Virus record (IMG/VR): IMGVR_UViG_3300045242_000094
Coordinates: 1 to 40,983 of that record
DNA length: 40,983 nt
Strand: one strand, 5' to 3'
Source of the DNA: a virus
Positions 2,615 through 27,976 of this stretch are shown in pieces; within the stretch, counting starts at the first letter, position 1, and each line of letters opens with the position of its first letter. The notes under the pieces are model-generated. The model made no database searches and had not been told where the DNA came from. It saw only the letters and a program-made list of their open reading frames with translations. Both the position numbers and the translations under genes were made by a program.

Positions 2615-4240
2615 ATGAAGCCACGCGGCAAACCGCAAGGGGGGCGATCCAAGGCCTTCCAGGCCCAGTTGGCGGCGTTCAAGGCGGGGTTGGCGCCTGG
2701 CACGCTTCCGACGCCTGCAGGGGGCGTGCAGCACAAGGCGAAAGCGGCGCCTGAGGCCCGCAAACGGGCTAGACCGACCGCCCGCCACGCGGTCCCACGG
2801 CCTGCTAGACCCAAGACGCCCCCACCACAGCCCGCTAAGGCGACCACAGAGGCCGTCCAGAATGCCCTGCCCGAACAGGCGGCCGCGCCACAGGCGCCTC
2901 CACAGCCCCCGTCGAAGCCGCGGCAGACGATCAGCATCCCGTTTGCGCCTCGGCCGTGGCAGATTCCGCTGATTGATGACCCGGCGAAGCGGATTGTGGC
3001 GGTGGTGCATCGCCGGGCTGGCAAGAGCACTGCGCTGATGTGGCGCGGGCTCAAGAGGTGCCTGACGGAAGTCAAATGGCCCAATCCGCGCGTTGTCCAC
3101 ATCCTGCCGTTTGGCGTGCAGTGGCAGAGGACTGGATTGTGGGATGATTTGGTGCGTGCGGCGGACGCGATACCGGGTGCATCTGTCCGCAGAAGCGAAA
3201 TGTCGGTGAAGCTGCCCAACGGGGGCACGTATCAGTGTGGTGGTGCGGACAATCAGGATGTGTGGCGTGGTGGCGGGGCGATTGAGTGCATCATTGATGA
3301 GTTTGATGATACGCCGCCCAGCATGGTCCCGCTGGTTATTGAGCCGATGTTGGCGGACAGGAATGGGACATTAGTCAGATCCGGCACGCCGAAGGGGAAT
3401 GGGCTGCTCGAGGCCGCCTACAATCGAGCGACAACGACACCCGGCTATTCGGCATACTTGCTGGACTATAGGAAGACGGATGCGCTGACGCCTGAGGCGA
3501 TTGAGCGCCTGCGCACTGAGATGACCGAGGAAGAGTTCGCGCAGGAATTAGAATGCAGCTTTGCGAGCCCGAACAGCGGCAGCTACTACGGCAGGGCGAT
3601 GGACGGACTGTTAAGAGATGGCCGCATCACCAATGTGCCGCATGATCCAAGCCTCAAAGTTTGGACGGCGTGGGATTTGGGTGTGCATGACAGCACGGCC
3701 ATTTGGTTCGCGCAGATAACGAAATCAGGTGAGTGGCGTATTATCGACTACATCGAGGATAGTGGCGCCGGGCTGGATCACTACGCCGGCCTCCTCCAAT
3801 CCCGGCCGTATGTCTATGAGAAGCATCTATTGCCGCATGATGCGAAGGTGAAGGAACTGGGGTCAGGGAAATCCCGTACCGAGACGATGCACGGGCTGGG
3901 GATCAGGCCGACACGGGTCATCAAGGCGCACAGTGTGGCGGATGGCATCAATGCCGTGCGGATGATACTGCCGAAGGCGTGGTTTGATGCGACGAAGTGC
4001 GCCCGGGGCATTCATGCGCTGCGACACTATAAGCGCGAGTGGAATGAGCAGGCGCAGGCGTGGCGGGCAAGCCCGGTGCATGATCACGCGAGCCATGGAT
4101 CTGATGCCATGCGGTATCTGTGCCTCGGCGTGCGCGAGGAGGGGGCCAGCGTCGGATCTAATATCATCCGCAACCAGTTTGGGGCACCAAGAGTTATGCA
4201 GCAGGGGCACGGTGCGGATACGGGTTGGATGAGCGTGTGA
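2615..4240 (+). CDS. Terminase large subunit
   Basis: 541 residues. After a long Ala/Pro/Lys-rich N-terminal extension (about 105 residues, probably disordered) comes the packaging ATPase: Walker A HRRAGKST at about 132-139 and Walker B IIDEFDD at about 226-232. The C-terminal RNase H-like nuclease starts around residue 345 (AWDLGVHDSTAIWFAQ, first acidic residue visible), with a late HDHASHGSDAMRY motif near the end. It powers DNA translocation into the prohead through the portal and cuts genome ends. The N-terminal extension is longer than usual for the family. It overlaps the next gene by TGATG. Confidence 0.95.
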   Translation: MKPRGKPQGGRSKAFQAQLAAFKAGLAPGTLPTPAGGVQHKAKAAPEARKRARPTARHAVPRPARPKTPPPQPAKATTEAVQNALPEQAAAPQAPPQPPSKPRQTISIPFAPRPWQIPLIDDPAKRIVAVVHRRAGKSTALMWRGLKRCLTEVKWPNPRVVHILPFGVQWQRTGLWDDLVRAADAIPGASVRRSEMSVKLPNGGTYQCGGADNQDVWRGGGAIECIIDEFDDTPPSMVPLVIEPMLADRNGTLVRSGTPKGNGLLEAAYNRATTTPGYSAYLLDYRKTDALTPEAIERLRTEMTEEEFAQELECSFASPNSGSYYGRAMDGLLRDGRITNVPHDPSLKVWTAWDLGVHDSTAIWFAQITKSGEWRIIDYIEDSGAGLDHYAGLLQSRPYVYEKHLLPHDAKVKELGSGKSRTETMHGLGIRPTRVIKAHSVADGINAVRMILPKAWFDATKCARGIHALRHYKREWNEQAQAWRASPVHDHASHGSDAMRYLCLGVREEGASVGSNIIRNQFGAPRVMQQGHGADTGWMSV

Positions 4241-7191: not shown

Positions 7192-7239
7192 CCCAAGCTG
7201 AGAGGCGCGTCCCTGTGGATCACTGGCCATTGCCGCCTC

Positions 7240-7503
7240 CTACTCATCAACCTGCCCCTCATGCCAAGCGTTCACGGCGGCAATCGCAGCCTGTCGCCGC
7301 GTCATCTCGGGCGGGTCTGGCGGCTCCGTGCCACCGCAGCATGTGCAGCGACCCAGAAGGTGGTTCAGACCGCCAATGACCAGCCGTTGTCGGCAGGCTC
7401 GGTGGTAGTAACGCTCCGTCAAACCGTCCCCGTCGATGTGCGGGATCATTTCGGGGCGACCGGCGGTGATCTCCTCGTCGCAGTGCGCGCAGATCAAGCT
7501 CAT
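7240..7503 (-). CDS. Small zinc-binding (Cys-rich) protein
   Basis: 87 residues read leftward from ATG at 7503 with an AGGGA ribosome binding site. Two probable zinc knuckles are visible: ICAHCDEEI with the later YHRACRQR, and GRCTCCGG. The ending is helical (EMTRRQAAIAAVNAWHEGQ). It follows the 7513-7725 gene by 9 bases in a two-gene leftward operon inserted in the rightward late region. The function is unknown; small zinc proteins of this kind are common in phage accessory loci. Confidence 0.65.
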   Translation of the reverse strand: MSLICAHCDEEITAGRPEMIPHIDGDGLTERYYHRACRQRLVIGGLNHLLGRCTCCGGTEPPDPPEMTRRQAAIAAVNAWHEGQVDE

Positions 7504-7512
7504 GGCACGTCC

Positions 7513-7725
7513 CTACTCTTCAACCTGCTCCTCGAAGCGTCCATCCCCGAACTCAACATCCCACCGTGCCCATAGCTTTCCGTCGGCACCACGATAGATG
7601 ACGAGTGTGTCTTGCTCCATTGGGTGTGGGCGGTTTCTGTCGGCGGCCTGTAGTTCCGCCCGACCGATCTCCTCGTACACCGTGCCGCGTAGCCTATGGC
7701 GCCATTTGCGGCTGGTTGTGGCCAT
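7513..7725 (-). CDS. DUF1653-like small protein
   Basis: 70 residues read leftward from ATG at 7725. The start is fixed by a strong ribosome binding site (AGGGGAGGGG) directly upstream; the open frame extends further but lacks such a site. The sequence (YEEIGRAELQAADRNR ... DTLVIYRGADGKLWARWDVEFGDGRFEE) resembles the small DUF1653-type or related beta-rich proteins found in phages, in which a strand with LVIYRG and a WARP-like turn are typical. Function unknown. Confidence 0.65.
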   Translation of the reverse strand: MATTSRKWRHRLRGTVYEEIGRAELQAADRNRPHPMEQDTLVIYRGADGKLWARWDVEFGDGRFEEQVEE

Positions 7726-7788
7726 CTGCCCCTCCCCTCTACTCTTCAAAATGCCCCTTTTGACGCCTGCCATGCAGCAAAGTGCCAG

Positions 7789-8067
7789 ATGCCACAATTG
7801 AGCGCCCCGGAAGCTGTCAGAACACCCCAGGAATGGCTCGACGGCCACGCGTCAGGCCTGGCATCGCGCGATGGCGAAGTGTCGCTGCTCAATGCGGTAA
7901 TCCGGGAATTAGCGGCAGAGAAGATGGCGACATTGGCGGCTATGCGCGAGTTGCTGAGTGGCCACGACAGGCTTTATTGCGCTCATTTTGGTGCCGCCTG
8001 CAATCCGGCTGACGATATCGCCGCCAAGGCCGCCCGCCGGATACTGGATGGGGCATATCCCCGCTGA
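7789..8067 (+). CDS. Hypothetical helical protein
   Basis: 92 residues from ATG 7789 (MPQLSAPEAVRTPQEWLDGHASG...). Predicted mainly helical with an amphipathic stretch EVSLLNAVIRELAAEKMATLAAMRELLS. Upstream in-frame starts would overlap the leftward 7513-7725 gene. The last 17 bases are also the first part of the CRISPR-like repeat at 8051, so the array abuts or invades the end of this gene. Confidence 0.55.
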   Translation: MPQLSAPEAVRTPQEWLDGHASGLASRDGEVSLLNAVIRELAAEKMATLAAMRELLSGHDRLYCAHFGAACNPADDIAAKAARRILDGAYPR

Positions 8068-8140
8068 CGCAGGGAACACCAGATCTGGGAGAACGGCCTC
8101 GGCCCGGTGCTCGGGTCAACCCCGCACGGCGGGGAAGGCG
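8051..8140 (-). CRISPR. Minimal type I-E-like CRISPR: repeat-spacer-degenerate repeat
   Basis: A 29-nt repeat (8051-8079), 32-nt spacer (8080-8111) and second 29-nt copy (8112-8140) have exactly the type I-E 61-nt period. Compared with the complement of the Escherichia coli K-12 repeat, the first copy matches 23 of 29 positions, including an unbroken CCCCGCTG and GGGAAC. The second copy is degenerate but keeps CGG, CCCCGC and GCGGGGAA with a shortened 3-nt loop. By comparison with known arrays the crRNA would read leftward, so 8112-8140 is the leader-side repeat. The spacer matches this phage at 8232-8263 (inside the GcrA-like gene) at 26 of 32 positions. No cas genes are present, so host I-E machinery would be needed. 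Confidence 0.75.
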
Positions 8141-8171
8141 ACCCCTTAACATGATCGTGGAGGCCAGCGCT

Positions 8172-8456
8172 ATGGCAACCATGCGGCACGTTGTATCCAT
8201 CCCCTGGTCCGACGAGGAACGTAACCTGTTACGCCAGCTATGGGCCAACGGACTCGGGCCGGTGCTGATCGGGCGGCTCATGGGGCGCTCCAAATACAGC
8301 GTCACCAAGCAGACGCAGGCACTCAAGCTGCCGCGACACCGGCTGCCGCCCGGTCTGGCGCCGCCACCAGAACCACGCCAACGACCACCACAACCACTGC
8401 GACCCGGCGCCCGCACGCTGCCGCCGCTGCCGAGCGAGATGAACGCCGGCGAGTGA
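8172..8456 (+). CDS. GcrA-like / SANT-type HTH DNA-binding protein
   Basis: 94 residues from ATG 8172, chosen because GGAGG lies 8 bases upstream; ATG 8151 is an alternative. Residues about 11-52 (WSDEERNLLRQLWANGLGPVLIGRLMGRSKYSVTKQTQALKLP) match the N-terminal HTH of GcrA-type alphaproteobacterial cell-cycle regulators, with the W-[ST]-D-E opening. The rest is Pro/Arg-rich and disordered. GcrA-like phage proteins probably tune phage or host transcription. The QLWANGLGPV codons are the region matched by the neighbouring CRISPR-like spacer. Confidence 0.7.
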   Translation: MATMRHVVSIPWSDEERNLLRQLWANGLGPVLIGRLMGRSKYSVTKQTQALKLPRHRLPPGLAPPPEPRQRPPQPLRPGARTLPPLPSEMNAGE

Positions 8457-8531: not shown

Positions 8532-9206
8532 ATGGCGAAGGCTGCTGGATACCTACCCCACACGGGCCCGATCGTCACGCGGGCCGAGGCCAAGGCGGCC
8601 GGGGCCAAGCTATACTTCACCGGGAAGCCGTGTCCGAAGGGGCACATCAGCGAGCGGTGGATCGCAAGCTACTCATGCGATACGTGCCAGCGCTTCGATC
8701 TGATCGCGCTGTATCAGGGCAACTACAAAGGCCGCCGAGACCGCAACCGATCCACCGCTAAGGCGTATCGCGAGGCCGCGCGAGAGAAGAACCGCATTCT
8801 CTCGCGGCAACAGTATGAAGCCCGCAAGCCATATATGGCGGCGTGGCAGGCCGCCAACGCAGACAAAATCCGGGAGTATCGCCGCGCTCGCGATGCCGCA
8901 ATGTCAGACGAACAGCGCGAAAAGAAGCGCGTTATCGTTCGCAATCGTCGTGCCCGCAAGCGAGGGAATGGTGGGAAACACACCGCCGCCCAGATCAGGG
9001 AACTGTTAATCAGACAGCGACACAGATGTATATACTGTCCAGCAGATCTGCGGCGTGGCTATCACGCAGACCACATCATGCCGCTTGCCCGTGGCGGGTC
9101 GAACGACATCCGCAACATCCAGTTGCTGTGTCCGACCTGCAACGACAGCAAGGGCTACAGCCACCCTGTTGCATGGGCACAGCAGAAGCGGGGACGACTG
9201 CTGTAG
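8532..9206 (+). CDS. HNH endonuclease (probable homing endonuclease)
   Basis: 224 residues from ATG 8532 with ribosome binding site GGAGGTG. The N-terminus carries a zinc-type pair (GKPCPKGH ... CDTCQRF), a long basic helical middle follows, and the C-terminal HNH is CIYCPADL ... HADHIMPLARGGSNDIRNIQLLCPTCNDSKG, with the catalytic DH pair and the two closing Cys. This is a complete free-standing homing-type nuclease. It sits directly before the portal gene, a favoured site for such elements. Confidence 0.85.
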   Translation: MAKAAGYLPHTGPIVTRAEAKAAGAKLYFTGKPCPKGHISERWIASYSCDTCQRFDLIALYQGNYKGRRDRNRSTAKAYREAAREKNRILSRQQYEARKPYMAAWQAANADKIREYRRARDAAMSDEQREKKRVIVRNRRARKRGNGGKHTAAQIRELLIRQRHRCIYCPADLRRGYHADHIMPLARGGSNDIRNIQLLCPTCNDSKGYSHPVAWAQQKRGRLL

Positions 9207-15955: not shown

Positions 15956-16933
15956 ATGAACAACGAAAATGGCGCTTGGACAGTTTGCTGCATAAGGGGA
16001 TGCGACGCGCCGCTGCACTCAAACGGTCTCTGCCTCAATCATCAGCGCCGCAATCAACTCTACGGCTCACCGGTTGCCTCAACGATAGTCGGGTGGCGCT
16101 GGCGGCACCTCTCTCATGAGGAGAGGTTCTGGGTGTCGATAAAGAAATGCGATGATGGCTGCTGGTTGTGGATGTCCGGGCGAGATGGAGACGGCTACGG
16201 GACATTCCATGCGGAACACAACGGTGCAAGTTACAAGCGAGCGCATCGCTATAGTTACGCATTGCACAAAGGGAAAATCCCGACACTCCTCAGTGTCTGT
16301 CATACATGCGACGTACGAGCCTGCGTTAACCCAGACCATCTGTTCCTCGGCACAAATACCGAGAACATGAACGACAAGATGGCCAAGGGGCGCCATCGAA
16401 CTATCAACGGCGAGAACCACTATCGCGCGATACTCACAGAGGAACAGGCCCGCGCCATCCTACTGGATCCACGGCCTCATACACAGATCGCCAACAGCTA
16501 CAACGTAGCCCGGACGACGATCAGCAGTCTCAAGGCACGGCACTCATGGCCAGAGCTTGGCGAGGCCAAGGGCGTCAAGGGAAAGCGTATCGGCCCGCGA
16601 ACAGGTGTAAGCGATAGGGTCACGCCCGAGATGGTGCGGGAAATCCTAGCCAGCGAGGAACGCGGCAAAGACCTTGCCGCCAAGTTCGACATCACGCCGC
16701 AGATGGTCAGCAACATCCGCCATCGCCGCAACTGGGCACATATCGAGGGAGACGTCGCCAAAGCGTCCACTCGTAGCGGAGCCGGCAACCACGATGCGAA
16801 ACTCTCGACACAGGACATAAGAGCCATCCGCGCCAGCGATCAGATGGGCGCGCGCATAGCCGAGCAGTACGGCGTCTCACGGTCCACCATCTCAAGCATC
16901 CGCAACCGACGCACTTGGACCCACATCGAATAG
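15956..16933 (+). CDS. HNH homing endonuclease with triple C-terminal HTH repeats
   Basis: 325 residues from ATG 15956 with GGGAGG upstream. A Cys/His zinc motif opens the protein (CCIRGCDAPLHSNGLCLNH). The HNH_3-type core is WLWMSGRDGDGYGTF ... RAHRYSYALHKGKIP ... CHTCDVRACVNPDHLFLGTNTENMNDK. The C-terminus holds three copies of a 40-45 residue HTH module, each with a pattern I-A-x-x-Y/F-x-[VI]-[AST] and a final W: LTEEQARAILLD..., VTPEMVREILAS... and LSTQDIRAIRAS.... The tandem HTHs should give long site recognition. It is inserted just after the coat gene and its terminator. Confidence 0.85.
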   Translation: MNNENGAWTVCCIRGCDAPLHSNGLCLNHQRRNQLYGSPVASTIVGWRWRHLSHEERFWVSIKKCDDGCWLWMSGRDGDGYGTFHAEHNGASYKRAHRYSYALHKGKIPTLLSVCHTCDVRACVNPDHLFLGTNTENMNDKMAKGRHRTINGENHYRAILTEEQARAILLDPRPHTQIANSYNVARTTISSLKARHSWPELGEAKGVKGKRIGPRTGVSDRVTPEMVREILASEERGKDLAAKFDITPQMVSNIRHRRNWAHIEGDVAKASTRSGAGNHDAKLSTQDIRAIRASDQMGARIAEQYGVSRSTISSIRNRRTWTHIE

Positions 16934-27351: not shown

Positions 27352-27976
27352 GCATGTGCCGCCGGTTAACCGGTTCCAATGCGGATTGAATGGTTTGGCC
27401 TGCCGCAAGCCGTGCGCGGATCGTGGTCAGTCCTAGGCCTGTCCATTTGCTCCAGTCGCTAAGTGAGCCTAGCCGTCCACCATAAGAAATGAGACGGACC
27501 TGGCTTGTGTTGAGAGCTTGTTCCTTTGATGTTGCCCAACGGCAGTTGGCTTTACAATACGGACCGTCGTTGTCGATGCGGTCTAACGTGCGGCCGGGAG
27601 GGCGCTCTCCCATATCAGAGATAAATCTCTCCAGTCCGTCTGGCCCTCGCCATCCAGCGCTAACGCTAATCCCGCGTCCGCCGTATCGGTGATATGTAGG
27701 GGATGTTGGGTCGAAACACCGGTCAATCATCGCGACCCAGGTGTTATAGAGGGGATGGGAAGTCATCCCGTGAGTAAGCAACTTATCCCTTACCAGGCAG
27801 CCGCAGGATGTAGCGCCGCCTCGCTTAAGCACAGAGCTGACGACCTTATGGGGGTTGCCGCACGTGCATCGGCATAGAAAGTTGGCTTGGTTCTTATATT
27901 TGTTTGGGAATACCCTTCGGATGACTGTCAAACGACCAAAGGTAAGGCCGATGAGGTTTAAAGCCGGACGACCCAA
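27248..27976 (-). CDS. HNH/AP2-type homing endonuclease, leftward
   Basis: 242 residues read leftward from a TTG start at 27976, supported by GGGAG eight bases upstream and by the typical MGRPALNLIGLTFGRLTVI opening. A Cys-rich zinc region (CRCTCGNPHKVVSSVLKRGGATSCGC) precedes the endonuclease core (HPLYNTWVAMIDRCFDPTSPTYHRYGGRGISVSAGWRG ... GRTLDRIDNDGPYCKANCRWATSKEQALNTS). A C-terminal HTH-like part follows. The final 33 codons run antisense through the end of the sulfotransferase-GNAT gene. It separates the tail genes from the ejection-protein genes. Confidence 0.8.
   Translation of the reverse strand: MGRPALNLIGLTFGRLTVIRRVFPNKYKNQANFLCRCTCGNPHKVVSSVLKRGGATSCGCLVRDKLLTHGMTSHPLYNTWVAMIDRCFDPTSPTYHRYGGRGISVSAGWRGPDGLERFISDMGERPPGRTLDRIDNDGPYCKANCRWATSKEQALNTSQVRLISYGGRLGSLSDWSKWTGLGLTTIRARLAAGQTIQSALEPVNRRHMLNPVIDYTDRQTAPLLTCETAPRGEDRCHDARPA

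Follow-up and report, generated by a model that had tools for sequence, protein, structure and literature searches.

A probable virus-borne type I-E mini-CRISPR next to the gcrA-like gene that its spacer partly matches

The locus and its repeats

The window analysed here is the whole 40,983 bp of the viral record IMGVR_UViG_3300045242_000094. A repeat–32 nt–repeat unit of type I-E spans positions 8051-8139, next to a gcrA-like HTH gene. The features of the locus are:

7739-8057, plus strand: stretch common to gcrA-bearing phages, with the similarity ending inside repeat R1
8051-8079, minus strand: repeat R1 (3' repeat in crRNA orientation), GUGUUCCCUGCGUCAGCGGGGAUAUGCCC, which would give the 3' hairpin
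8080-8111, minus strand: 32-nt spacer, window sequence CAGATCTGGGAGAACGGCCTCGGCCCGGTGCT, crRNA AGCACCGGGCCGAGGCCGUUCUCCCAGAUCUG
8112-8139, minus strand: repeat R2 (5' repeat in crRNA orientation), GCCUUCCCCGCCGUGCGGGGUUGACCCG, predicted 5' handle UUGACCCG
8151-8178, minus strand: weak promoter-like site TTGCCA-16-GATCAT, directly upstream of R2 in crRNA orientation
8151-8456, plus strand: gcrA-like HTH gene, the window's own allele of the targeted gene, likely start ATG 8172
8235-8266, minus strand: self site, 26/32 to the spacer, mismatches in crRNA orientation at 9, 15, 21, 22, 27 and 29
8267-8269, minus strand: PAM position of the self site, ATC (ATG in the phages G020, G010 and G022)

On the minus strand, in crRNA order, the unit reads R2', spacer, R1'. 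It has the hairpin repeats of 28-29 nt, the 32-nt spacer and the AAG/ATG PAM of type I-E, and, as in known mini-arrays, a single spacer lies between CRISPR repeats in a viral genome. Against the I-E consensus R1 reaches 24/29, more than any shuffled window (maximum 22); its core recurs in R1 of nine further distinct arrays, and its handle side is degenerate (GGGCAT on the plus strand). R2, with a loop one base shorter, scores 20/29, which alone is not significant, and is accepted on account of its stem, its distance of 32 nt from R1, and relatives in which it recurs in the same slot with the same form. A chance repeat is ruled out for R1 and for the whole unit, R2 being weak by itself. Hairpin folds are predicted for both repeats; in a joint fold of the whole transcript they pair with each other, with an uninformative z of -1.8.

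The repeats of the single-spacer arrays in this set of phages decay asymmetrically. The CGG end of the handle is found in R2 of 16/16 arrays and in R1 of 2/16, and the AACAC end in 10/16 and 3/16 of R1 and R2, respectively. This is the pattern expected of one mature crRNA from the minus strand. The promoter-like site scores 9/12 (mean of shuffles 0.1), and a sigma-70 scan over all array leaders gave an enrichment of -10-like sequences and no convincing full promoters. A PADLOC scan of 20 window ORFs, which covered all but the smallest, found no cas genes.

The Pfam GcrA match of the gcrA-like gene falls below the Pfam cut-off, and most of its relatives have 56-84% identity. The gene is unmatched in INPHARED phages and the array locus in PLSDB plasmids. 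Upstream, identity to the phage G022 reaches 99.5% over 7780-7969 and 97.8% over 8012-8057, and this similarity points to a recent exchange between the two phage lineages. A 22-nt direct repeat occurs in three copies between small ORFs (7239-7260, 7512-7533 and 7738-7759), with similar copies in gcrA-bearing phages. An HNH endonuclease gene (8532-9206) lies just after the gcrA-like gene, and the ORF at 15956-16933 has a weak homing-endonuclease match.

The spacer and its matching sites

The spacer occupies 8080-8111, as the first-pass annotation had claimed. That annotation had also described a match of 26 in 32 within the neighbouring gene at 8232-8263; the identity stands, and the true site lies three positions further on, at 8235-8266. 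After this correction its mismatch positions are exact, with positions 1-8 matching, and both the ATC flank and the codon reading (QIWENGLGPV against QLWANGLGPV) are correct. The spacer differs from the own site by six mismatches within 41 kb and from its best foreign sites by one. Since control spacers in the 2.15 Mb compared reached at best 7 mismatches when reversed and 8 when shuffled, and none reached six or fewer, the match to the own site is beyond chance.

The best target, at 31/32 and with PAM ATG, is the gcrA-like gene of IMGVR_UViG_3300045119_000186 (G020/L064); as in known mini-arrays, the spacer matches a competing virus beside a functional PAM. Matches of 31/32 also lie in the gcrA-like genes of G028 and G009, both with PAM ATC, and matches of 30/32 in four more phages; the sites of G010 (30/32) and G022 (29/32) both have ATG. 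Among the 17 foreign gcrA sites tallied for this spacer, 6 have ATG and 11 have ATC, and ATC flanks many of the 30-31/32 sites as it does the self site. The consensus PAMs for interference by the E. coli I-E system are AAG and ATG, and ATC is grouped with the interfering or intermediate ones (PMC6568314).

The first-pass annotation had derived the spacer from the same gene of a related phage, and expected a perfect match beside an AAG-type motif. G020 indeed supplies such a gcrA-like target in another phage, flanked by an I-E motif that is ATG instead of AAG, and the IMG/VR search returned no 32/32 donor. The target is thus the gcrA-like gene of other phages, as proposed, but G020 is not a close relative of the window because their portal families differ. 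The window has a P22-type portal (Pfam P22_portal), terminase and head genes, and this portal is largely missing from the gcrA-bearing target phages; the portal of G020 belongs to a different PHROG family, and this phage also has scaffold, tail fibre and DNA ejection proteins. In the nearest portal relatives, L002 and L003 (86%), the best spacer sites reach 24/32, and no array was found in the sequence compared.

Homology running past the spacer limits had been named beforehand as the sign of a decayed gene copy. Identity to G020 is 31/32 inside the spacer and only 18/60 and 20/60 outside it, and the 32-mer is therefore a spacer and not a gene remnant. This conclusion also draws on the foreign best matches, on the sister arrays with other spacers and on the asymmetric repeat decay. 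The near-perfect foreign sites and the homology limits also support its origin from the same gene of another phage.

Related arrays, their carriers and the host

The unit pattern occurs in 21/50 phage records (reversed-pattern control 0/50), and in the related records over a dozen other arrays share this form, with different spacers of 32-33 nt. Among the 23 distinct spacers of these records, 15 have a foreign site with at most six mismatches in the 2.15 Mb compared, three match a foreign phage at 32/32, and five have no match there. AAG or ATG flanks the sites of 13 of the 15 matched spacers (about 3% expected per random site), the exceptions being the G036 spacer (AAA) and one G045 spacer (TCT). 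The PAM is sometimes the start codon of the target gene, for example in G044 and G025. Mutual targeting at 32/32 with PAM ATG is found between G013 and G045/G047. A leader-like sequence that ends in gagtatatacgaag is common to the arrays G013:17986-18136 and G045:4072-4283 (the same array in G047).

The slot upstream of the gcrA-like gene was compared in five phages. It is empty in G010, holds one repeat in G005, and holds repeat, spacer and repeat in G013, G044 and the window, with three different spacers all directed at the gcrA-like gene. The solitary I-E repeat in this slot (L046 2555-2577, record G005:2557) is a candidate RNA anti-CRISPR, or a candidate array minus its spacer.

Several other arrays were observed. 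The 41-kb phage G040 (IMGVR_UViG_3300046376_000041) has at least nine repeat units in four separate arrays with five spacers, for which no confident target was found. The spacer of L107:6578-6678 has a 31/32 match with PAM ACG 309 bp away on the same contig. Two unrelated viral contigs are candidates for CreA-like regulation: L125 (array at 836-939) and L110 (4477) each have an own site with intact seed and a PAM of AAG or ATG, at distances of 71 bp and 1.2 kb from the array, respectively.

The carrier's own copy of the target is usually spoiled in seed or PAM. Own sites have mismatches only at 4, 5, 7 and 8 for the G013 array 18047, at 1, 2 and 7 for the second, gcrA-directed G013 array, at 7-10 plus three more in G045, at 5, 7 and 8 in G025, at 1 and 2 in G044, and at 4, 7 and 8 in G023; the foreign sites paired with these seed-broken alleles have intact or nearly intact seeds. 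The orthologous site of the window is likewise mutated (26/32, PAM ATC), as known for mini-arrays. Its PAM difference is a synonymous Leu codon, own CTG against CTC, and this change from CTC to CTG, together with mismatches outside positions 1-8, may be what spares the window. Since ATC is interfering or intermediate in E. coli, sparing would come from the mismatches plus a weaker PAM, not from an absolute PAM block. Two exceptions were seen. The own site of the G013 spacer 17986, 15 kb off, has AAG and position 6 as its sole mismatch in the first 16, and in the G014 array 39552 own and foreign mismatches are identical and the PAM alone differs (CAG against AAG).

The exact R1 core (TGAC/GCAGGG) was not found as a host repeat in GTDB genomes. 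A looser repeat pattern matched 16 stretches, whose spacers reach at most 26/32 to these phages and were treated as chance-level. Portal relatives occur in the Acetobacter phage phiAX1 (40%) and in 14/397 genomes of the family of an Acetobacteraceae isolate (36-44% identity), and Cse1, of type I-E, in 46/299 genomes of that family. Acetobacteraceae are a candidate host family, a link resting on portal relatives at about 36-44% identity. The Acetobacteraceae contig L281, probably a prophage, has tail-like genes and a three-spacer I-E array (2750-3010).

Function of the array and its closeness to the target

We consider it very probable that 8051-8139 is a Cas-less, virus-borne I-E mini-CRISPR that hijacks the host I-E system against rival phages. 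A minus-strand transcript would be cut by host Cas6e into one crRNA with the handle UUGACCCG, a 32-nt guide and a 3' hairpin from R1. In an I-E host, the host's Cascade would take up this crRNA and Cas3 would be guided to the gcrA-like gene of other phage lineages infecting the same cell, best where the PAM is ATG, and the carrier would thereby exclude co-infecting phages that bear the target. The own gcrA-like allele, 36 bp away, would escape because of its six mismatches and poorer PAM. The DNA itself shows how the array is built, that foreign protospacers match almost perfectly beside I-E PAMs, that own alleles are spoiled and that related arrays repeat this pattern; transcription, processing, use of the host I-E system and exclusion we infer. 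Against the hijacking of a host system count the missing R1-core host repeat, the missing 32/32 donor, the 11/17 sites with ATC, the weak promoter-like site and the five unmatched spacers.

An alternative is that the guide brings host Cascade to the adjacent own gcrA-like gene and represses it without cleavage, as a CreA-like regulator. The array does resemble the CreA of CreTA systems in having two degenerate repeats around a spacer beside a gene that it partly matches, with seed positions 1-8 intact (PMC8501985, PMC9458426), and the own sites of L125 and L110, near their arrays and with PAM and intact seed, fit such regulation too. On the window's sequence alone such a regulator would be possible. 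We nevertheless regard it as unlikely, because the spacer fits its foreign target much better than the own gene (31 against 26), and because the own site has PAM ATC and lies inside the coding region, whereas the CreTA guide matches a promoter. Regulation would need an intact own seed and PAM, and at least six own sites in relatives have broken seeds; unlike in CreTA, the target here is foreign and the own seed or PAM is usually broken. No CreTA toxin was found in a search that excluded small toxin RNAs, and the adjoining gene encodes a GcrA-like HTH protein.

The repeats could instead sequester host Cas6e/Cas7 as an RNA anti-CRISPR, a Racr-like decoy with an incidental spacer. Racrs of type I-E are known, as Cas-less repeat units in phages (PMC10651486), and G005 has such a single unit in the same gcrA-upstream slot. 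The window differs in having two repeats at spacer distance and a spacer that matches targets. Spacer length is moreover constant at 32-33 nt, spacers match rival genes beside correct PAMs, and repeat decay preserves exactly what a crRNA needs, all of which makes a decoy very improbable. The chance that the locus is a degraded copy of part of the gcrA-like gene, flanked by accidental hairpins, is negligible. The 32 nt are in frame and codon-like, as such a duplicate would be, but their homology stops at the spacer limits, they are nearer to foreign gcrA than to the own one, and the arrays of relatives hold unrelated spacers; we therefore reject it.

As a mini-CRISPR, the array has its closest parallel in the Sulfolobales viruses SPV1 and SPV2, whose mini-arrays carry spacers against competing viruses and have a mutated own site (Medvedeva et al. 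2019, PMC6858448). Both sets share few spacers, the lack of cas genes, mutual targeting and spacers directed near the array. In contrast to SPV1/SPV2, the carriers here are bacterial phages with type I-E repeats, ATG/AAG PAMs and degenerate terminal repeats, the window's rival comes from a different phage lineage, and proximity is quantified. Mini-arrays and single repeat units of phages, the same kind of element, have been reviewed (PMC11656645) and modelled (PMC7099407), and in this literature phage leaders are said to differ from host leaders. The present set differs from these in its many alternative arrays, usually beside the own target allele, and in repeats without an identical counterpart among known host repeats.

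Closeness of array and target has been reported, unexplained, for the Sulfolobales virus mini-arrays (Medvedeva et al. 2019, PMC6858448). In our set, 12 arrays have a foreign target in a gene of which the carrier has its own homologue, and for 10 of these that own allele is no more than 260 bp away, where 0.6 are expected from random placement with an assumed 300-bp homologous stretch (P about 1e-12); as records were partly gathered via the gcrA-like gene, the count without the three gcrA-directed arrays is 7/9. The clear exceptions, G013 17986 and G045 4072, are leader-proximal spacers of multi-spacer arrays. G014 has no own homologue, and its array 27655 sits between both flanks, where the targets' gene would be. 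This array, common to G014 (27655-27744) and G017 (252-340), lies within a 627-bp island of 99.4% identity against a background of 81-91%.

It is possible, though we propose it only tentatively, that this proximity reflects a homing-like element or, more weakly, selection that keeps weapon and immune allele linked; either would explain it. In the case of homing, the crRNA would cut the rival allele at the very locus that the array occupies, and the cut locus, by recombining with the carrier, would become array plus immune allele. The 10/12 proximity, the G014 array at the locus of the targeted gene, the 627-bp island and the G022 similarity ending in R1 support such a process.

Virus-borne mini-CRISPRs are already known, and the best-studied case is archaeal. 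To these the present phages add a bacterial set in which the alternative arrays are many, the targets match almost perfectly beside correct PAMs, the own alleles are broken in the seed, and the proximity can be counted. If homing is true, the mini-array would spread as a natural drive among co-infecting phages, and a bacterial set of this kind makes it a testable question whether the array is merely linked to an immune allele or spreads by cutting and replacing the rival locus.
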